DNA of 26,339 nucleotides from a virus. Numbering within the stretch: the first letter of the stretch is position 1; the number at the start of each line of letters is the position of its first letter. Of the stretch, positions 961 to 26,339 are shown one piece after another. The position numbers and the translations under genes are program-made. The DNA lies in IMG/VR virus record IMGVR_UViG_3300031603_000024, positions 1 through 26,339 of that record; one strand, 5' to 3'. The notes beneath the pieces are model-generated. The model had not been told where the DNA came from, made no database searches, and was given only the letters and a program-made list of their open reading frames with translations.

Positions 961-1032
961 AGCGGGTACAGGGAGTCAAACCCTGCCCTTAAGATTGGAA
1001 ATCTTTTATGCGATCACAAACACCTTACCCGC
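961..1032 (-). tRNA. tRNA-Gly(TCC)
   Basis: The acceptor GCGGGTA/TACCCGC is perfect and the T-arm is CAGGG-TTTGACT-CCCTG. The anticodon loop TTTCCAA gives TCC. The D-stem GTGT/GCAT relies on G-T pairs, and the outermost pair of the anticodon stem (AAAGA/TCTTA) is A-A. Discriminator T, with no encoded CCA. It lies 8 bp from tRNA-Tyr, so the two are probably co-transcribed and processed. Confidence 0.85.
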
Positions 1033-2984: not shown

Positions 2985-3010
2985 TAATTATAGGACAAAG
3001 TTACAAAATT
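2985..3010 (-). promoter_or_regulatory. Leftward promoter, degenerate box
   Basis: TATAATTAA (the -10 at 2987-2992) is present on the minus strand and the upstream CTTGGATCTTAACTG block is conserved with the other promoters. The central box, however, is altered to TTTTGTAACTT. It would serve the MSRSYKK gene. Confidence 0.45.
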
Positions 3011-4562: not shown

Positions 4563-4844
4563 TCACATTAATTCTTTAATGAACTGATATAGGGGGTGTT
4601 TATCATCAAACTGAAGGAAATCATCGAGTATACCACACTCTAATAACACGGTATCGATGAGTTCATCTTCTGCTAATTCTTCAGGAGTTAGTGGGATAAC
4701 ATTTGGGCCGGGGCCATTATAATGTAACTCTCTTGCTGCTTTCATTCTTTTTGTATCCAACTCCTGACATCTGCGTACGGTTACGAATGCCCATTCCTCG
4801 GGAAGGAGTGTACTGTTCTCGAGCGTTGTTATTTTCATTTCCAT
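4563..4844 (-). CDS. Hypothetical acidic protein, 93 aa
   Basis: The start is ATG 4842-4844 after CGGAGAAATAAA, with promoter TTCCGTATATT-like/TATAAT at 4880-4900; this is the first leftward gene after the divergent centre. The product starts MEMKITTLENSTLLPEEW and continues with a helical basic part (VRRCQELDTKRMKAARELHY). A Pro/Gly hinge (NGPGPNVIPL) follows, then an acidic, leucine-rich helical half (EELAEDELIDTVLLECGILDDFL). As the first gene it may be the earliest expressed on this side. No family is recognised. Confidence 0.75.
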   Translation of the reverse strand: MEMKITTLENSTLLPEEWAFVTVRRCQELDTKRMKAARELHYNGPGPNVIPLTPEELAEDELIDTVLLECGILDDFLQFDDKHPLYQFIKELM

Positions 4845-4879
4845 TTTATTTCTCCGTTTTAGTGTTGTTTGTCTTTTTA

Positions 4880-4902
4880 ATTATACTACAATATACGGGT
4901 TA
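4880..4902 (-). promoter_or_regulatory. Leftward phage promoter
   Basis: ACCCGTATATT on the minus strand precedes TATAATTAA (-10 at 4880-4885) with the usual 4-bp gap, and TTGGAATTG lies upstream at the conserved TTGG position. It drives the 93-aa gene at 4563-4844. Confidence 0.6.
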
Positions 4903-5010
4903 TTTCCCACAATTCCAACCTTTTTGATTTTATTCAAAAAAATAAATACAACTTTTTTTGGGAAGTTGGGTATAAGAATTAACTGATTCAAAAAGAAGCA
5001 GGGTATACCT

Positions 5011-5136
5011 AAACAAATTTAATTATAGTTATTCCAAAACAAATTTAATTATAGTTATTCCAAAACAAATTTAATTATAGTTATTCCAAAACAAATTTAA
5101 TTATAGTTATTCCAAAACAAATTTAATATACATTCC
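5011..5136. repeat. 26-bp tandem repeat array in divergent intergenic region (iteron- or operator-like)
   Basis: Four perfect direct copies of a 26-bp unit start at 5011, 5037, 5063 and 5089. A fifth copy begins at 5115 but diverges after AAACAAATTTAAT. Each unit begins AAACAAATTT and ends TTATTCCA. On the minus strand each contains AACTATAATTAAATTTG, that is, the same TATAATTAA as the leftward promoters. The array lies in the 331-bp gene-free gap 4845-5175 between leftward and rightward genes, followed by A-rich sequence with two AAAACAAAATAGAAA copies before the nuclease start. It may be an operator, a promoter array or replication-initiator sites. Confidence 0.9.
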
Positions 5137-5175
5137 ATATAAAAACAAAATAGAAAAACAAAATAGAAAGTAGAA

Positions 5176-6312
5176 ATGAAAACGGACAAACTAACTCTGT
5201 TGTTTGATGGAAACTTTATTTTTCACCAGGCGCTTCATGTTATTAAGGGATATGAGAAGAGATCCTCCAAATTTCTTTCGAAGCAAAAAGATATTAACAT
5301 CTTTATGGAAAAATTAATCAACGATTTTATTGGCATAACGAACAATTTCAAAGGCTATAAGCGAATAATCTTTTGTTACGATTCCAGAAGTTGGCGAAAG
5401 ACATTCTATCCAGAATACAAGGCCAACCGGAAGAAACAACAAAAAGACGACACAGACTGGTCCGTATTTTTTAACCTCATCAAAGAATTTGGAGATCTGT
5501 TAAAACTGAATAATGTCATTGCATCCTCCATAGACGGCTTTGAGGGTGACGATCTACTTCACCTCTGGAGTAAGTATCTGTTCGATAATGGGGAAGACAG
5601 TATTGTAATAACAGCAGATAGTGATTTAACTCAGATTGTTGAATATGGACATGGTAATTTTGTGGGAGTATATAATAATAAATCCAGTACCCGAAAAATT
5701 ATAATGAAGGATGGGTTTGAAGATTGGGCTCAGACGGCCTTTGTGAAGCCCACTAATGACAGTTTATTGGATATGACGGCATTGATGAAGAAGCTATCAC
5801 ACTCATTTAGTGGTACAGATATCATATCTAATGCCAAGAAGAACCTAAATTATGAAGAGATTGATCCTAATAAAGTGAGGTTGGAGAAGGTTGTATGTGG
5901 AGACCCCGGAGATAATATAATGGATATCTGGAAGAGGAAAAAAGGATCCGCAATAACAAAGGTATATAAACAGGTTCTTAAATTTGTTGAGACATACCAG
6001 ATGGGCAATATCAATATCAAGAAATTTATAACTGACGAAAAATTTCTTCGTAGACTCAAAGCTGTTATAGAGCAGGCTTCCATTTCAAATTTGAACTACG
6101 CGGATTTTAAAAATGATTTATTAAGAAACATCCGGCTGGTTTATTTGGACAAAGAATATTTACCAGATGGTATGTATGAAACATTTTTAAAAGGTACGGA
6201 TAATGAGTTGTCTATCTGTGAGGATTTGACGGCGCACAACATCTTTGAAAATAGTAAGTATAAACAGAGTAAGACCCCCGGCAAGATACAAATAATTTCA
6301 GATGCATTTTAA
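5176..6312 (+). CDS. 5'-3' flap exonuclease / RNase H (T4 RNase H-like)
   Basis: A 378-residue FEN/5'-nuclease superfamily protein. Acidic metal ligands appear in the family order: LLFDGNFIFH (Asp11), IFCYDSRSWRK (Asp69), GFEGDDLLHLW (Glu123, Asp125, Asp126) and VITADSDLTQIV (Asp148, Asp150). A helix-three-turn-helix signature VCGDPGDNIMDIWKR follows near residue 240. The basic region YPEYKANRKKQQK fits the DNA-clamping helical arch. In T4 the homologue removes RNA primers and flaps from lagging-strand fragments; the same role is inferred here. The ATG follows AGAAAGTAGAA. It is the first rightward gene after the repeat array. The next gene begins 9 bp after its stop with its ribosome binding site in the gap, so they form an operon. 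Confidence 0.9.
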   Translation: MKTDKLTLLFDGNFIFHQALHVIKGYEKRSSKFLSKQKDINIFMEKLINDFIGITNNFKGYKRIIFCYDSRSWRKTFYPEYKANRKKQQKDDTDWSVFFNLIKEFGDLLKLNNVIASSIDGFEGDDLLHLWSKYLFDNGEDSIVITADSDLTQIVEYGHGNFVGVYNNKSSTRKIIMKDGFEDWAQTAFVKPTNDSLLDMTALMKKLSHSFSGTDIISNAKKNLNYEEIDPNKVRLEKVVCGDPGDNIMDIWKRKKGSAITKVYKQVLKFVETYQMGNINIKKFITDEKFLRRLKAVIEQASISNLNYADFKNDLLRNIRLVYLDKEYLPDGMYETFLKGTDNELSICEDLTAHNIFENSKYKQSKTPGKIQIISDAF

Positions 6313-6321
6313 GGAGTAGAA

Positions 6322-6783
6322 ATGGCAAAGAAGGTAGTTCCAAAGAAAGCTAAACCAAAGAAAAAGAAGAATCCGGATGACCTCTTTTTCTTTATAAATA
6401 TGCTTTGGAGAGAAGATGAACTTAATGCACTGACTGATTACCAGATTGGAAAACATCATTTTATGATTAATAAATTCATGTCAATTCAGTGGCCCCTAAA
6501 TGCGGCGTTTATGGGACATCAGGGAATCAATCCTGCCAGTGCCGTTCGGTATTGGAGGAAAATGCTAATACTTCAATATTACAGTCCTCCCAAATGGTTA
6601 TATGCCACCGGAGTGAAAAAACCAAAAGCTACATACACCGCCAGCCCCGAAGCGATAGAAACATATTGTCGGTGGAATGAGTGTGGCCTTAGAGATATTG
6701 AAGAGATTACATCAATTTTTCCAAAGGAATTGGAAGAGGAACTAAAAGCCATAGAGGCTCAGGGTGTGATTTCTAAGAAATGA
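6322..6783 (+). CDS. Lys-rich 153-aa protein, possibly clamp-loader small subunit-like
   Basis: The ATG follows AAGGAGTAGAA, a strong ribosome binding site placed right after the nuclease stop. The N-terminus is a basic tail (MAKKVVPKKAKPKKKK). The rest is a helical domain: DDLFFFINMLWREDEL, then YQIGKHHFMINKFMSIQWPL and NPASAVRYWRKMLILQYY. The spacing of an FIN segment followed by a Y..xFMINKFxS segment recalls the small clamp-loader subunit (gp62) of T4-like phages, and the neighbour is a replication nuclease. This is a by-eye resemblance and could be wrong. The Lys-rich tail suggests DNA contact. Otherwise treat it as a conserved phage protein of unknown function in the replication block. 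Confidence 0.5.
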   Translation: MAKKVVPKKAKPKKKKNPDDLFFFINMLWREDELNALTDYQIGKHHFMINKFMSIQWPLNAAFMGHQGINPASAVRYWRKMLILQYYSPPKWLYATGVKKPKATYTASPEAIETYCRWNECGLRDIEEITSIFPKELEEELKAIEAQGVISKK

Positions 6784-8822: not shown

Positions 8823-9575
8823 ATGGCCAAGGCAGAAAAGAAAAAAATTCCCGTCAAACAAAATATTGACGCCGGTTATAAATCAGCATTGGATTCATTA
8901 CAGGGCGTAAATGATGATATCTTCCTGGGAGATGACAACATATCAAATCCTTCTGATAAAGTACGCCCGGCATGTAATTTCATGGAATTAAAGACAAAAT
9001 GTGAAGAGAAAACAAACGACTTTGTTGATTATCTGGTGGAATTTTATCTAAGTAAAGAAGTTGTGGGCCTCCCTCATACTCAATCCAAGATCGATGACGA
9101 CAAAAATACCCTATCTAAGCTATTATTCCAGATTGAAACGTCCGAGCACGCGATTATGAGGTGTCTGGAGCGCATAGAGTACGCACCTGAGGCGAGGTTG
9201 TTCGAGGTGTTATCACAGTGTCAAAGAGCCCAGATGGACATAATTAAGCACTACGAGGCCGACAAAAAACTCATAGAGGATAATTATAAAATGATAAAAG
9301 AGTCCTATGCAATTCAAAGGTTGGAATTGCCTGAATCTACAGGAGATGGACGACCCATGAAACAGAAAAGAGATACAAAGAGTATTCTAAGAAGTGTACA
9401 TGATAAAGTAGGATCGTTGGATGTCAAAGAACATAAAGTTGGTGGGAATGTTGAAGAGTTGACGGACGCCATTGAAATTACCGATACCAAGAAGAAGCCC
9501 AAACAGAAACCAAAAAGAAAATCACAAAAAAAACAACCCGAGCCATCATGGCCAAAGGGAGTTAGGCCAATCTAA
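8823..9575 (+). CDS. Putative small terminase subunit, 250 aa
   Basis: It lies directly before the large terminase; its TAA stop overlaps the terminase ATG by one base (TAATG), which indicates translational coupling. The ATG follows TTAGGAGTATATTA. The protein is helical, with a basic N-terminus and a long predicted coiled coil at about residues 85-165 (SKLLFQIETSEHAIMRC to KHYEADKKLIEDNYKMIKES). It ends with a Lys/Gln-rich tail (KKKPKQKPKRKSQKKQ). A coiled-coil core with basic ends and this position match small terminases (T4 gp16), which recognise viral DNA and start packaging. Length is greater than T4 gp16 (164). No diagnostic motif exists in this family, so the call depends on position and helical content. 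Confidence 0.7.
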   Translation: MAKAEKKKIPVKQNIDAGYKSALDSLQGVNDDIFLGDDNISNPSDKVRPACNFMELKTKCEEKTNDFVDYLVEFYLSKEVVGLPHTQSKIDDDKNTLSKLLFQIETSEHAIMRCLERIEYAPEARLFEVLSQCQRAQMDIIKHYEADKKLIEDNYKMIKESYAIQRLELPESTGDGRPMKQKRDTKSILRSVHDKVGSLDVKEHKVGGNVEELTDAIEITDTKKKPKQKPKRKSQKKQPEPSWPKGVRPI

Positions 9576-15981: not shown

Positions 15982-17754
15982 ATGGAAATTATAAATGACA
16001 TGGTTAAAAATTCAGAAAATCTTTTGGAATTTTTTAAAAAATATAAAATTTTAAAAAAGACAAATTCTGATGTTGAGGCATATATTATATCAAAAACTTC
16101 ATTTTTAGAAGAAAGATATTCAAATATCCATATAAATCAAAGACTTGTCCATATTTACAATAATTATTACGAGTTTTACGTTTGTGAATTTTGCGGGGAA
16201 TTAGTTCATAAGTATGTGAGTGTAGATTTAAAAAATGATGTTTATTATAATACAATTTGTAAAAATAAAAAATGTATAATATTAAAACGGAAGGCCGCCA
16301 ATTTAAAAAAATATGGGGTCGAAAACGCCGCCCAATCTAACACCATTAAAGACAAAATGAAGGCCGCCAATTTAAAAAAATATGGGGTCGAAAACGCCGC
16401 CCAATCTAACACCATTAAAGACAAAATGAAGGCCACCAATTTAAAAAAATATGGGGTTGAAAATGTATCTCAATCGGAAGTTATAAAGAAAAGGAAGATA
16501 TCCACATGCTTTATTAATTTCGGGGTTGATCATCCCATGCAATCGAAAGTTGTTCAGGAAAAATCGGAAGATACTTGTATGTCAGAATATGGAAAAAAAT
16601 ACACATTCCAGACGGATAATTTTAAAATGAAGGCGAGACAGACCTGGGAAGAAAATTATGGTGTTAAGAATCCAAGCCAATCCGAAAAAATTAAAAATTT
16701 AGCTCAACAGACATACGCAAAGAATTTTCTTGTTAATTCATCCATTTTTGTTGATTTGAAAAAGAGAAGATATGAAATGCTAAATTATATAGGGAGTATA
16801 TTCACATTAAAATGTCCAAAATGTAATGAAATTTTTAATATTCATCATAAATTATTATATAGTAGGTTGTATAATCACTGTGTAGAATTATGCGTCAATT
16901 GTAACCCTCTTGATTCACATATCTCAGGTCAAGAGGTTAAACTAAATGAATTCATAAATTCACTTGGAGTTGAAACCGAACAATCCAACCGAACAATCCT
17001 TGGTAATAGGGAAATTGACATTTATATACCCTCCATGAAAATTGGATTTGAATTTAACGGAATTTATTGGCACTCGGATAAGTATAAATCGAAAGATTAT
17101 CACCAGGAAAAGAAATTTCTTGCAGCAAAGAATAACATCAATTTAATTCATATCTGGGAAGATGATTGGAATTTTAAAAATGAAATTGTCAAAAGTAGGA
17201 TTCGAGCTGTCCTTGGGATATCGAAACGTATCTATGGCCGTAAAACTGAAATAAGAGAGGTCTCCTCCGTTGTCTCCAGGGAGTTTTTAAATATAAATCA
17301 TATACAAGGACATATAAATTCAAAACATCGTATAGGGCTGTTCTATGAGAGTAATTTAGTGGCATTAATGACCTTTGGTAAAAGAAATGATCGAACCGAG
17401 ATGTTAAGATATTGTAATCTATTAAATTATACTGTCATTGGAGGATTTTCAAAGCTGTTGAAATATTATATTCAAACATATTCACCGAAAGAAATATTTT
17501 CATATGCCGATTTGGACTGGAGTAACCCAAATAAAAATGTATATTTAACGACAGGATTTAAATTTTGTGGAAACACTGTTCCAGGATATAGTTGGGTAAA
17601 GTCCGGTATACGATATGGGAGGCAACAATTCCAGAAACATAAATTGGTAAATGAAGGTTTTGATCCATCTAAAACAGAAACAGAAATTATGCATGACCGA
17701 GGATACAATAAGATATATAACAGTGGTAACGGCAAATATTTATATAAAAAATAA
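15982..17754 (+). CDS. Homing endonuclease, Vsr-like PD-(D/E)XK (EDxHD) type with 23-residue repeats
   Basis: A 590-residue free-standing homing endonuclease. The order is: N-terminal helical part; zinc-finger-like CEFC...CKNKKC (about residues 71-95); six 23-residue repeats of the form NLKKYGVENxxQSxxIKxKM (about 103-245), probably DNA-reading helices; a second zinc ribbon CPKC...CVNC; and the nuclease core. The core reads GNREIDIYIPSMKIGFEFNGIYWHSD, then LIHIWEDDW; the Asp, Glu and His residues match the Vsr-like/EDxHD group that includes phage I-Bth0305I. The C-terminal domain (FLNINHIQGH, LVALMTFGK, LRYCNLLNYTVIGGFSKLLKY) is shared with T4-type Hef/Mob proteins. The enzyme would cut phages lacking the gene and spread itself. 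It lies between a terminator and the DHH gene, a typical intergenic insertion. The start follows AAGGATATTGGT. Confidence 0.9.
   Translation: MEIINDMVKNSENLLEFFKKYKILKKTNSDVEAYIISKTSFLEERYSNIHINQRLVHIYNNYYEFYVCEFCGELVHKYVSVDLKNDVYYNTICKNKKCIILKRKAANLKKYGVENAAQSNTIKDKMKAANLKKYGVENAAQSNTIKDKMKATNLKKYGVENVSQSEVIKKRKISTCFINFGVDHPMQSKVVQEKSEDTCMSEYGKKYTFQTDNFKMKARQTWEENYGVKNPSQSEKIKNLAQQTYAKNFLVNSSIFVDLKKRRYEMLNYIGSIFTLKCPKCNEIFNIHHKLLYSRLYNHCVELCVNCNPLDSHISGQEVKLNEFINSLGVETEQSNRTILGNREIDIYIPSMKIGFEFNGIYWHSDKYKSKDYHQEKKFLAAKNNINLIHIWEDDWNFKNEIVKSRIRAVLGISKRIYGRKTEIREVSSVVSREFLNINHIQGHINSKHRIGLFYESNLVALMTFGKRNDRTEMLRYCNLLNYTVIGGFSKLLKYYIQTYSPKEIFSYADLDWSNPNKNVYLTTGFKFCGNTVPGYSWVKSGIRYGRQQFQKHKLVNEGFDPSKTETEIMHDRGYNKIYNSGNGKYLYKK
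16291..16428 (+). repeat. Perfect 69-bp tandem duplication inside the homing endonuclease
   Basis: Copies at 16291-16359 and 16360-16428 are identical at every base. A third, diverged copy starts at 16429. Each unit encodes one 23-residue KKYGVEN repeat. Identity including synonymous sites shows a recent duplication. Confidence 0.92.
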
Positions 17755-21525: not shown

Positions 21526-24500
21526 ATGGCTAAAGATACAAAAAAGAAATCCCTGGGAACAGTTGATCCGGAAAAAGGAGAAAAAAAAGATGAATTATTA
21601 AATTCAGTGAATTCCGTATTTGGCTCTATTGGGGATCAAATGGATTCCATGAATCAAGATTCAAAAAAACAATCATCTCTTTTCGTTGGCATCGGCAAGG
21701 TTCTTACCAAACTCCAAGAGGAACCCAAAAAAGACAAATCAAAAGGATCTGGCGCCGTTGGTGGCACTGCCGATATCAATAAATCCCTCTCGAAATTAAA
21801 TGAATCTATCCTGGCACAGACTGCAATCCAGAGTGCCTTACTCGCTACCATTGCAGGAGCTGGAAAGAAATTACCCAATGTTAAAACACTCGCCAAGCAA
21901 GATCTCGCCAAGCAAGCAGCAAAACTGAGTTCTATTATAAGTGGATTGAAAAATGCCAAGCCCGGAAAAATGGGTGGTGACAAGGAAAAAGGTGATGACA
22001 AGGAAAAAACTGGTGGCAAGGAAAAAACCGGCATAATGGATAAGGCTAAAAATCTCTTCAAGAAGGGACCTCCGGCCAAGTTAGATACATCAGGAATGTC
22101 TCAACTTCTCAGATTCATGAAAGAATTTTCAAAGTTAAATATTAAAGATAATAATAGTCCAATCTTTGAAATATTTACTCCGAAGAACACTGACAATATA
22201 ATCAACTTCGTTAAAGCAACCAAGAAATTAGGCCAAGGGAAAATTAGAAAATCGGTTGCCAATTTCCAACTTCTTGTACTTGGGGACAAAAAATCTCAGG
22301 GTATTGGTAGGGTATTATTAACCTTATCCAAAGAATTTAACAAAAAAGACCAGTCTGAATCTAAGAAAATAATAGCCCTCATTTTGGGATCCCTAACGAC
22401 GATTGCAACAGGGATAAAAGCTCTTGCTAAAGCTGCTGTCTTTTCAAAATTGGCAGTTGGTACCATTCGAGTATTCGTTCAGATTGTTCATTTATTAAAA
22501 GACGCCTTCTCAAAGGGAACTTTTGGATCAGAAACAGATAATGTAATTGCAAAAGTTGCGGAGTCTTTAGAGAGGATTGGTGGCACAATTATCAAACTGG
22601 CCCTTGTTGCTGTTCTAACTCCAATTGCCGCAGTCTCTGTGTTATTTATATATGGGACATTGCGTTTATTCCAGACATTAGGTAAGGGATCAAAAAGTAA
22701 AAAATTAAGAAGGGGAATTCGCTCTCTGACATTATTAGGATTTGGACTCATTACATTCGTGGTTGCTGCTACACTTTTTGCGGTAGTGATATTGAAAATA
22801 ATAGTCCCTCTTGTACTTGGAATTTTATTAATATCGGCCGTTGGTGTCATTTTTACATTACTTGGGACGCTTCGAAAGAAAATTAAAAAGGGAAGTAAGG
22901 CATTAATCGCAATATCGATTGGCCTTGTTGCGTTTACCCTTGGAGCATTTGCATTGACATTGGTAATGATGGTTTCCCCTCTACATTTACTTGCAGGAAT
23001 TGCGGTCATTGGAATGATGGGATTATTATTTACACTTCTTGGAGTTTTAAGAAAGCGAATAATAAAAGGGGCCTTTGCTATGTTAGCTATGTCAATTGGG
23101 CTTGTGATATTTTCTGCCGCACTATACATAATGACTCTTGCAATGAAAAACACTACCTGGAAAATGTTGGCAATGATGGGAGCCGCCATAGCAGGAATGG
23201 GACTGGCTGCATTTGGCATTGGATCAAAACTAAAAACAATTGTACGGGGTGCCATTGGTTTAGCCGCATTGGGAGTCAGTTTAATGATATTCTCCGTAGG
23301 ACTGTTAATATTTTCAAAGGCGTCAAAAGACTTGACCTGGGATAAATTGGCCATGCTTGGTGCCACTATAACGGGTCTGGGACTTGCTGCGTTTGTGATA
23401 GGAGAAAAGATCAAGACAATTTTAAAAGGTGCTCTTGGCTTGGCCGCATTGGGATTCAGTTTAATGATATTCTCCGTAGGACTGTTAATATTTTCAAAGG
23501 CATCGAAGAACTTAACCTGGGATAGATTGGCCATACTTGGCGCCACTATAACGGGTCTGGGACTTGCTGCGTTTGTGATAGGAGGAAAGATCAATACAAT
23601 TTTAAAAGGTGCTCTTGGCTTGGCCGCATTAGGAATCAATTTAATAATATTCTCCATAGGATTATTAATATTATCAAAGGCATCAAAAGACTTAACCTGG
23701 GATAAATTGGCCATGCTTGGTGCAGTAATTACGGGGTTAGGTATCGCTGCGGCTGTTATTGGTCAAAATATAAGTACAATTCTAATCGGTGCCGTTGGTT
23801 TAGCCGCATTAGGAGTCAATTTAATAATCTTCGCAACAGGAATGTTAATATTTTCGAAGGCATCAAAGAACTTAACCTGGGATAAGTTACTCATGCTTGG
23901 TGCAGTAATTACGGGGTTAGGCCTTGCCGCGGCAGTTCTTGGTATTCCCCCAGTATCCGGTTTTGTATTAATGGGCGCATTGGTTTTGACGGCACTTGCC
24001 GTACCACTAATTGCATTTGGTTTCGCAATTGGTTTATTTGGGGATTCTGCAGATAAATTAACGGAAAAAAATATAAAAATGACTGGTGAATTTATTTCCA
24101 TGTTAGCATTTAATGTTCCAAAATTAGTATTGGCAACCGTTGGGCTACCTGCATTATTAGGAATATCTGCAGCATTACCACTATTAGCAAAAGGCTTACA
24201 GGAACTAAGTAAGGTTCCTGAGTGGACAGAAAAACAAAGTGAAAACTTCTCATTCTTAATGGGAGCCCTTGTTAGTGGAATGTTAGAAACCGTATGGCCT
24301 CCATGGCATGCCGCAGGAGTATTGGCATCTATACCACTTGTTGTTGGAATGGGTGTTGCGTTACAAGAACTTTCAAAAGGACTACAAGAAGCCTCGAAAT
24401 TTAACTGGGCGGAATTTGATATTGTTCCCATTCAAACTGTTCTTGTAGGATTAGCGGAGGCATTTGCAATGGTTGGTCAGGCAAGTGGAGAAGGCAAGGG

Positions 24501-26339
24501 AATGCTTGGTGGAATAACGAGCATGATTGGAATATCTCCAAATTCTGTTTTAATTGGTATTAAGTCAGTAAGTGGTGCAAGTAAGGCCCTCACGGAAGTT
24601 GGTAAGGGCGTCAAGGCATTTTTTGACATGACCGATGGAATGCCAAAAGAATCATGGGCAGTTAATGATGATGGTAGTCCGGCAGAGGGTTCAGTTCCAC
24701 AAAGAATTGCAACCGTTCTGGGAGTGATTGGAAAAGTCTTCGGGGACATTGGGGCATCTGGGAATACAAATGACAGTCTCATTGGCATGGTATTTGGTAG
24801 TGACATGAAAAAATCGGACACTGAAGTTGGAATAGAATCAACTAAAAAAGTAGGCAAGACGTTAATATCCGTGACAGAAGGCGTCCAAGCATTTTACAAT
24901 ATGTCAAACGGTATGGGTGACGAAGCATGGGCAGTCAATGAAGACGATAGTCCGGCAGAGGGTTCAGTTCCACATAGAATCGCAACCGTTCTTGGAGTAA
25001 TCGGTAAGGTATTTGGTGACATTGGGGCATCCGGGAACACAAATAACAGTCTCATAGGGATGATATTTGGTAGTGACATGAAAAAATCAGATGTGGAAGT
25101 TGGTATAGATTCAACTAAAAAAGTAGGTCGATCTTTAATTTCTGTGGCACAAGGCGTTGAAGTCTTTTTCGATTTAACTAAAGATATGGGTAAAGCCGCA
25201 TGGGCAACTAATTCGGATGATAGTCCATCTAAAGATTCAATTCCTTATAGAATATCAACTGTTCTTGGAGTTGTGAATAAAGTATTTGCTGACATCGGGA
25301 AACAAGGTAGTGGCGGCAGTTTGATTAGTATGGTATTTGGTAATGATTTCAGTCAGAATAGTGTCAAGGTGGGATCTGAAAGTGTTGAGATGGCAGGAAA
25401 AGCCCTTTCAAAAATTGGAGCGTCCTTGGGTGAATTTTGGAAATTTACTGAGAGTTTGGGTTCCGGAGTATGGGATCTTGATTCGGAAGGTAAATTCAAA
25501 GATGGAACGATACCCCACAGAATATCAACTGTTCTTGGAGTAGTTAATTCCGTATTTTCGGAAATTGGAAACAACAAGCCAAAAAGCGTTTTGGGATTAT
25601 TATCAACTGTATTCTTAGGAACTACCCTTACAACCTCGGACACGGACAAGGGAATAGAGTCAGTTAAAAATGCAGGAAGTTCACTGATACAAATAACCAA
25701 AGGTCTTGGTGAATTTATAAAAATGACAAGTGCTCTTGGGTCTAATGCATTTAAATCTATAGGCACAGGTAAGAATGGAAGGTTATTATTTGCAGCCGAT
25801 TCGATACCAGCTAAAATAATTAGTGTTCTTGGAGTTATTAATCAATCGTTTGGTGAGATTGGAAGAAATGCAGGAGGAGGATCAGGTGGAGCGGAAGGAT
25901 TATTATCTGATGTATTTGGTTCAGCCACCAACGACAATTTCGTTAAAAAGGGAATTGAGTCTGTTAAGGGAATTGGGGAGATATTTACAGGCATTGCTGG
26001 TGGAATGAAATCTTTTGCAAATGTCGAGAGTATGCTCGGAGGAGCAACTATAGCACAACTTGGTATAAATATAGGCTTAGTTTTAACTGTCATATCCGGA
26101 GTCTTCCAGAAAATTGGTGAAGGTGGTGGCAGTGGTGGAATGTTTAGTGATGGAGACATACAAGATGGCGTTGAAGCGGTTCAGGGTATTGGTGCGGTAT
26201 TTGGGGAGATTGCAACTGGAATGAAAGAATTTGCCACTCTCCAACAAATGGGACTAAGCCCAGAGGATTTCAAAGTTGGTGGTGGTGGAATGGTTGACAA
26301 CATAAAGAATATCATGATGGCAGTCACCGGAGTATTTGC
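21526..26339 (+). CDS. Tape-measure protein, N-terminal 1604 residues (3' end outside window)
   Basis: One frame stays open from ATG 21526 to the window edge, at least 1604 codons. Layout: a polar N-terminus of about 190 residues with a Lys/Gly-rich linker (GGDKEKGDDKEKTGGKEK); a helical part; seven tandem 60-residue hydrophobic repeats (about residues 386-805); a second hydrophobic stretch; then six or more repeats of 90-100 residues (from about 1014). Great length, helical and hydrophobic repeats, and position behind gp26/gp51-like genes are those of tape-measure proteins (T4 gp29 role), which set tail length and pass into the cell on injection. The start has no Shine-Dalgarno (leader AAATTATTCTATTTTA) but follows a late-promoter motif. 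Several long minus-strand frames across it are repeat-driven shadows. A large membrane protein is the less likely alternative. Confidence 0.85.
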   Translation, partial: MAKDTKKKSLGTVDPEKGEKKDELLNSVNSVFGSIGDQMDSMNQDSKKQSSLFVGIGKVLTKLQEEPKKDKSKGSGAVGGTADINKSLSKLNESILAQTAIQSALLATIAGAGKKLPNVKTLAKQDLAKQAAKLSSIISGLKNAKPGKMGGDKEKGDDKEKTGGKEKTGIMDKAKNLFKKGPPAKLDTSGMSQLLRFMKEFSKLNIKDNNSPIFEIFTPKNTDNIINFVKATKKLGQGKIRKSVANFQLLVLGDKKSQGIGRVLLTLSKEFNKKDQSESKKIIALILGSLTTIATGIKALAKAAVFSKLAVGTIRVFVQIVHLLKDAFSKGTFGSETDNVIAKVAESLERIGGTIIKLALVAVLTPIAAVSVLFIYGTLRLFQTLGKGSKSKKLRRGIRSLTLLGFGLITFVVAATLFAVVILKIIVPLVLGILLISAVGVIFTLLGTLRKKIKKGSKALIAISIGLVAFTLGAFALTLVMMVSPLHLLAGIAVIGMMGLLFTLLGVLRKRIIKGAFAMLAMSIGLVIFSAALYIMTLAMKNTTWKMLAMMGAAIAGMGLAAFGIGSKLKTIVRGAIGLAALGVSLMIFSVGLLIFSKASKDLTWDKLAMLGATITGLGLAAFVIGEKIKTILKGALGLAALGFSLMIFSVGLLIFSKASKNLTWDRLAILGATITGLGLAAFVIGGKINTILKGALGLAALGINLIIFSIGLLILSKASKDLTWDKLAMLGAVITGLGIAAAVIGQNISTILIGAVGLAALGVNLIIFATGMLIFSKASKNLTWDKLLMLGAVITGLGLAAAVLGIPPVSGFVLMGALVLTALAVPLIAFGFAIGLFGDSADKLTEKNIKMTGEFISMLAFNVPKLVLATVGLPALLGISAALPLLAKGLQELSKVPEWTEKQSENFSFLMGALVSGMLETVWPPWHAAGVLASIPLVVGMGVALQELSKGLQEASKFNWAEFDIVPIQTVLVGLAEAFAMVGQASGEGKGMLGGITSMIGISPNSVLIGIKSVSGASKALTEVGKGVKAFFDMTDGMPKESWAVNDDGSPAEGSVPQRIATVLGVIGKVFGDIGASGNTNDSLIGMVFGSDMKKSDTEVGIESTKKVGKTLISVTEGVQAFYNMSNGMGDEAWAVNEDDSPAEGSVPHRIATVLGVIGKVFGDIGASGNTNNSLIGMIFGSDMKKSDVEVGIDSTKKVGRSLISVAQGVEVFFDLTKDMGKAAWATNSDDSPSKDSIPYRISTVLGVVNKVFADIGKQGSGGSLISMVFGNDFSQNSVKVGSESVEMAGKALSKIGASLGEFWKFTESLGSGVWDLDSEGKFKDGTIPHRISTVLGVVNSVFSEIGNNKPKSVLGLLSTVFLGTTLTTSDTDKGIESVKNAGSSLIQITKGLGEFIKMTSALGSNAFKSIGTGKNGRLLFAADSIPAKIISVLGVINQSFGEIGRNAGGGSGGAEGLLSDVFGSATNDNFVKKGIESVKGIGEIFTGIAGGMKSFANVESMLGGATIAQLGINIGLVLTVISGVFQKIGEGGGSGGMFSDGDIQDGVEAVQGIGAVFGEIATGMKEFATLQQMGLSPEDFKVGGGGMVDNIKNIMMAVTGVF
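22681..23940 (+). repeat. Seven tandem 180-bp (60-residue) repeats in the tape measure
   Basis: Units start at 22681, 22861, 23041, 23221, 23401, 23581 and 23761 without net indels, apart from a one-residue offset in the first two. The consensus runs GxKIKTILKGALGLAALG, then LMIFSVGLLIFSKASK, then LTWDKLAMLGA, then TGLGLAAFVI. The first three are diverged; units 4 and 5 are nearly identical in DNA, indicating recent duplication. Confidence 0.93.
24565..26175 (+). repeat. Second repeat series of 90-100 residues in the tape measure
   Basis: Units start near 24565, 24838, 25111, 25381, 25660 and 25960, with spacings of 273, 273, 270, 279 and 300 bp; a shorter one begins near 26176. Common parts are STKKVGKxLISVxxGV, then WAVNxDxSPAEGSVP, then RIATVLGVIGKVFGDIG, then SLIGMVFGSDMKKSD. 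The first two units are the most alike. Confidence 0.88.

Follow-up and report, generated by a model that had tools for sequence, protein, structure and literature searches.

Phage and plasmid iteron or operator arrays, such as the lambda O iterons and the P1 iterons, consist of tandem direct repeats of about 20 bp within an AT-rich control region. A second group of described elements are the promoters recognized by the sigma-A factor of the Bacteroidota (sigma-ABfr), which are comprised of a TTTG element at -33 and a TAnnTTTG element at -7 (PMC6847099, PMC7366714, PMC9723704). In Flavobacterium johnsoniae, the mapped -7 box TAHHTTTG occupies positions -12 to -5, transcription starts 4–5 bases later, and AT-rich motifs are found near -18 and -28 together with a weak element at -33 (PMC6847099). 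For Flavobacterium psychrophilum a minor promoter class with the box TAnnTTGY is known (PMC9723704).

The stretch of DNA analysed here, in the following denoted as the window, is a virus record of 26,339 bases. Within a 331-bp gap between two divergent gene blocks it harbors four identical tandem units of 26 bp (5011–5114; no strand assigned), which read AAACAAATTTAATTATAGTTATTCCA on the plus strand and TTTTGGAATAACTATAATTAAATTTG on the minus strand and whose starts at 5011, 5037, 5063 and 5089 were confirmed by a direct sequence check. A partial fifth unit of 13 bases follows (5115–5127; no strand assigned). The period of 26 bases has an imperfect onset at 5004 and runs on to 5127; Tandem Repeats Finder reports 4.8 copies at 5004–5127 with a score of 234, whereas 1000 shuffles of the gap that preserved dinucleotides reached 80 at best. 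This places the array far outside the chance expectation; its copy number is that of the assembled virus record. A preliminary description had noted four identical units and a partial fifth in the divergent gap, which the exact copies, Tandem Repeats Finder and the shuffles bear out. Its start at 5011 is retained, but its end at 5136 lies about 9 bases too far, as the segment ATACATTCC (5128–5136) is off-period. Also correct are the claims that every unit carries one AACTATAATTAA and one TTGGAAT on its minus strand (4 each) and that 26 bp correspond to about 2.5 helical turns, placing adjacent copies on opposite faces of the DNA. The unit has a G+C content of 15%, and contains a 12-bp near-palindrome (5 of 6 pairs); no identical sequence was found in the collections of viruses and genomes searched.

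The leftward block begins with an ORF of 93 amino acids (4563–4844, minus strand; no family match), the rightward block with a 5'-3' exonuclease / RNase H-like ORF (5176–6312, plus strand; PF02739, phrog_107) that is followed by head-closure, terminase, sheath and tube genes. The order exonuclease, ORF at 6322, head closure, ORF at 8823, terminase, sheath and tube is repeated in many viral contigs found via the sheath. The terminase and the exonuclease have matches in large T4-like phages, among them phages that infect Flavobacterium, Tenacibaculum and Prevotella; the host of the virus is therefore likely a member of the Bacteroidota. Searches of the viral collection by exonuclease and by terminase led to a single close relative, the same contig in both cases: IMGVR_UViG_3300035698_016456 has the same divergent junction, with 80% identity for the exonuclease, 93% for the sheath and 73% for the first leftward ORF.

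Several other features of both genomes are recorded here. In the window, GGAG, often as ACGGAG, precedes the start codon of several genes (4844, 2963, 1923, 1424, 579, 6322, 8823 and 19964); Bacteroidota genes are reported to be devoid of Shine-Dalgarno sequences. In addition to tRNA-Met, tRNA-Pro and tRNA-Thr, a fourth tRNA-like match (961–1032, minus strand; Rfam, 39 bits) is absent from the ARAGORN output. The ORF at 15982–17754 (DUF7487) has an internal repeat of 69 bp and is 95% identical in the relative; located between tail genes, it may be a mobile endonuclease gene. A long ORF running off the end of the window contains tandem repeats of 180 bp and 273 bp (23248–23903 and 24649–25299), both multiples of three. 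The terminase of the relative (L062:6325-8717) is divided into two ORFs, QSGK|CYIYNTK...KL* and MFRSV...NGILSHN|TTTAAFF, apparently by an intein with an atypical split that interrupts the Walker A motif; the second of the two parts has a match to the structure of the VidaL intein (6vgv, E 6e-9). The terminase of the window is without this split.

The leftward genes are preceded by putative promoters with a common pattern. Aligned on an 8-base -7 box, all seven (five from the window, two from the relative) have TTGG or TAGG upstream, and in every case precisely 20 bases separate TTG/TAG from the box. The box itself is TATATT-N-G-like (TATATTNG-like) or TAACTTTG, and ATAATTAA is found a few bases downstream, such that the pattern reads TTGG/TAGG-N19-TATATTNG-like box, then ATAATTAA at the start. 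The promoter proximal to the array (4877–4918, minus strand) consists of TTGGAAT (4918–4912), the box TATATTGT (4895–4888) and the start region TATAATTAA (4885–4877), and is well conserved in the relative. The other four boxes of the window, placed by the register of the alignment and likewise on the minus strand, are TATATTAC (1516–1523), TATATTGT (1968–1975) and TAACTTTG (2996–3003), each with TATAATTAA downstream, and TATATTAG (2654–2661) with ATAATTAA downstream. The box TATATTGT resembles the TAnnTTGY class of F. psychrophilum.

In these promoters TATAATTAA (at 4885, 2992, 1965 and 1513) is located 2–4 bases 3' of the -7 box, where transcription would be expected to start. Because of this register, and because the starts mapped in F. 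johnsoniae lie 4–5 bases past the box, TATAATTAA is the predicted start region of the leftward promoters and not a -10 box; the latter reading is ruled out by the register together with the lack of -35 hexamers. The preliminary description had seen in each array unit the same -10 extension as in the leftward promoters. The nine letters do recur there, but their register differs and the likeness is one of text only.

In upstream regions of related phages, the box TAHHTTTG exceeds shuffles (34 occurrences compared to 18.5 ± 4.1), with no strand bias (34 sense, 40 antisense); the more specific words TATATTTG and CCGTATATT occur 12 times (2.4 in shuffles) and 5 times (0.0 in shuffles), and sigma-70 boxes are not enriched over shuffles in these regions. 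By eye, CCGTATATT-N4-7-ATAATTAA is found before ATG-led frames in other viral contigs (for example L010, L022, L029, L038, L050, L056 and L059); a scan for this pattern also returned many other matches unlike gene starts. Upstream of 167 TATATTTG sites TTG has no preferred distance, and the -33 element therefore cannot serve as strong evidence.

Within the array, the word that fits the -7 consensus of the Bacteroidota is TAAATTTG, a perfect TAHHTTTG box with five occurrences, all in the orientation of the leftward genes (minus strand). The five -7-like boxes are located at 5118–5125, 5092–5099, 5066–5073, 5040–5047 and 5014–5021. By analogy with F. johnsoniae (PMC6847099), transcription would be expected to start at about 5113, 5087, 5061, 5035 and 5009, respectively, at a purine (G) in every copy. 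The minus strand of each unit reads TTTG-N18-TAAATTTG, then TTTTGG, with TATAAT at about -18 to -13. Box 1 has a TTG 20 bases upstream (5146–5148), as in the other leftward promoters. Box 2 is preceded by the TTTG of box 1 at a distance of 18 bases; boxes 2–5 all have the spacing TTTG-N18, unlike the N20 of the other leftward promoters and differing also from the known sigma-A promoters. With a period of 26 bp, each box places its TTTG at -33 of the next one. Like the Bacteroidota sigma-A promoters, the array thus has an upstream TTTG, an AT-rich -18 region and a purine at the expected start; unlike them, it consists of five overlapping copies in which one box would serve two promoters.

We note that this match has to be read with care. 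Given the box, a TTG or TTTG near -33, present for all five boxes, comes free with the period of 26 bp, and TTG-N17-21-TAHHTTTG arises by chance in 7–11% of comparable tandem units (shuffled or non-coding). The promoter match of the array is therefore weak on its own, and the mechanism is not proven by it. The variant TAAATTTG is barely enriched in the upstream regions of related phages (sense 7, compared to 4.3 ± 2.2). Compared to the leftward promoters of the phage itself, the array shares the strand, the TTG-N20 spacing of box 1, and the strings TTGGAAT and TATAATTAA, but has both strings in another register; TATAATTAA lies upstream of the TAAATTTG box and overlaps its front, so the likeness is out of register. 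The array is devoid of the CCGTATATT core and does not show the full signature of the leftward promoters (TTGG/TAGG, a CCGTATATT-like core and ATAATTAA, all at constant distances). No sigma-70 site of the form TTGACA-N16-18-TATAAT is found in the array, and the surrounding 1-kb region has 6 compared to 5.0 ± 2.4 expected. The string TATAAAAA at 5138 was rejected as a late promoter, because strings of this kind abound in every AT-rich gap.

The 26-bp array is absent from IMGVR_UViG_3300035698_016456, which has a single TAAATTTG box and retains one CAAAACAAATTTA (minus strand: TAAATTTGTTTTG). This word precedes the start of the exonuclease by 64 bases in the relative and by 63 bases in the window, where the copy with the conserved position is contained in the partial fifth unit. 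The longest word common to both gaps has 13 bases, a length reached by about 1% of shuffles. A block adjoining the array (4943–5003, no strand assigned), TTTTTTGGGAAG..GGGTATAAGAAT.AAC.GATTCAAAAAGAAGCA, is strongly conserved as well. Around the shared word CAAAACAAATTTA the relative has a degenerate 13-bp tandem repeat of its own (1827–1867, core CNAAACA in three copies) with a score of 54, reached in 1.2% of shuffles; one seed thus appears to have given rise to a different repeat in each of the two genomes. In 13 more distant relatives, and likewise in LR756500, the exonuclease follows co-directional genes, with neither a divergent junction nor such an array. The preliminary description had named absence from the same junction of close relatives among the findings that would refute its proposals. 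The array is indeed absent there, but the single core copy is conserved in place.

This pattern is in part what would be expected of a (nearly) neutral repeat that arose by slippage or recombination in AT-rich intergenic DNA and contains at most one functional copy. The identical copies suggest a recent origin, the unit is without an identical counterpart in the collections searched, and the independent 13-bp repeats of the relative at the same spot suggest a slippage-prone site. Against neutrality, the array sits exactly on the one conserved core and nowhere else in the gap, and intergenic space in phages is compact. All boxes are intact, a fact that a recent origin explains equally. We consider a neutral repeat unlikely.

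The repeat of the relative at the same place also somewhat favors a different function, namely an array of operator or titration sites for a phage regulator that binds TGTTTTGGAA (minus strand) or the near-palindrome TAACTATAATTA. Cooperative binding would then control the divergent leftward and rightward promoters, and a site between divergent blocks, with a near-palindrome in each unit, would suit such a switch. However, the resemblance of the cores is that of AT-rich text, AT-rich palindromes are cheap, and no DNA-binding domain was found in the small genes near the array. A regulator-binding array is the foremost rival reading and possible, if on the unlikely side. The near-palindrome also accounts for the folding of the array: the plus strand folds more strongly than shuffles (z = -5.3), but the pairs derive only from its tandem repetition and Rfam has no match for the array, for which reasons an RNA element was rejected. 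The flanking block at 4940–5012 shows some folding (z = -2.3 and -2.6), with a structure that is not kept in the counterpart of the relative.

The least supported explanation, and a very improbable one, is that the array represents iterons or an unwinding element of a replication origin. Its AT-rich tandem direct repeats resemble phage and plasmid iterons, it lies beside a replication-associated exonuclease, and the GC skew changes sign at the array; the change in skew coincides with the switch of the coding strand and needs no origin. Unlike known iteron arrays, the locus has no DnaA boxes and no initiator gene nearby (none was found among the proteins scanned, the window being a fragment), and the close relative is without the array, as are the 13 other relatives, whose exonuclease lies in a co-directional block. 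The iteron option of the preliminary description thus found no positive support, neither in a DnaA-box cluster nor in the close relative.

Among the three options raised there, a leftward promoter array is the best, with TAAATTTG and not TATAATTAA as the promoter-like element. We tentatively favor, at somewhat less than even confidence, a tandem duplication, specific to this lineage, in which a single leftward promoter core of the Bacteroidota type (sigma-A) was multiplied, resulting in staggered, overlapping starts; the multiplication would most likely have been recent and local. The five -7 boxes would aim at the leftward early genes, with the predicted starts given above, and, as the period equals the distance between -33 and -7, each box would double as the -33 TTTG of the next promoter. 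With a footprint of about 60–80 bp, at most one or two RNA polymerases could be bound at once. Since promoters about 2.5 turns apart cannot all be occupied together, the duplication would act on the probability of capture and on leader length: a higher local chance of capture and starts staggered by 26 bp would feed the leftward operon, adding to the conserved proximal promoter at 4877–4918. That such an interlocked chain lets a Bacteroidota phage set its early leftward transcription by copy number, in the manner of a rheostat, is a more speculative and rather doubtful extension.

The transcriptional control of large T4-like Bacteroidota phages is little described. The leftward promoters provide a testable consensus for early promoters of such phages, TTGG-N19-TATATTNG-like box, then ATAATTAA, and imply that a reading in the style of E. 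coli, with TATAAT taken as the -10 box, misplaces promoters in these genomes. The array itself adds a compact example of two close relatives that may have diverged in promoter copy number.
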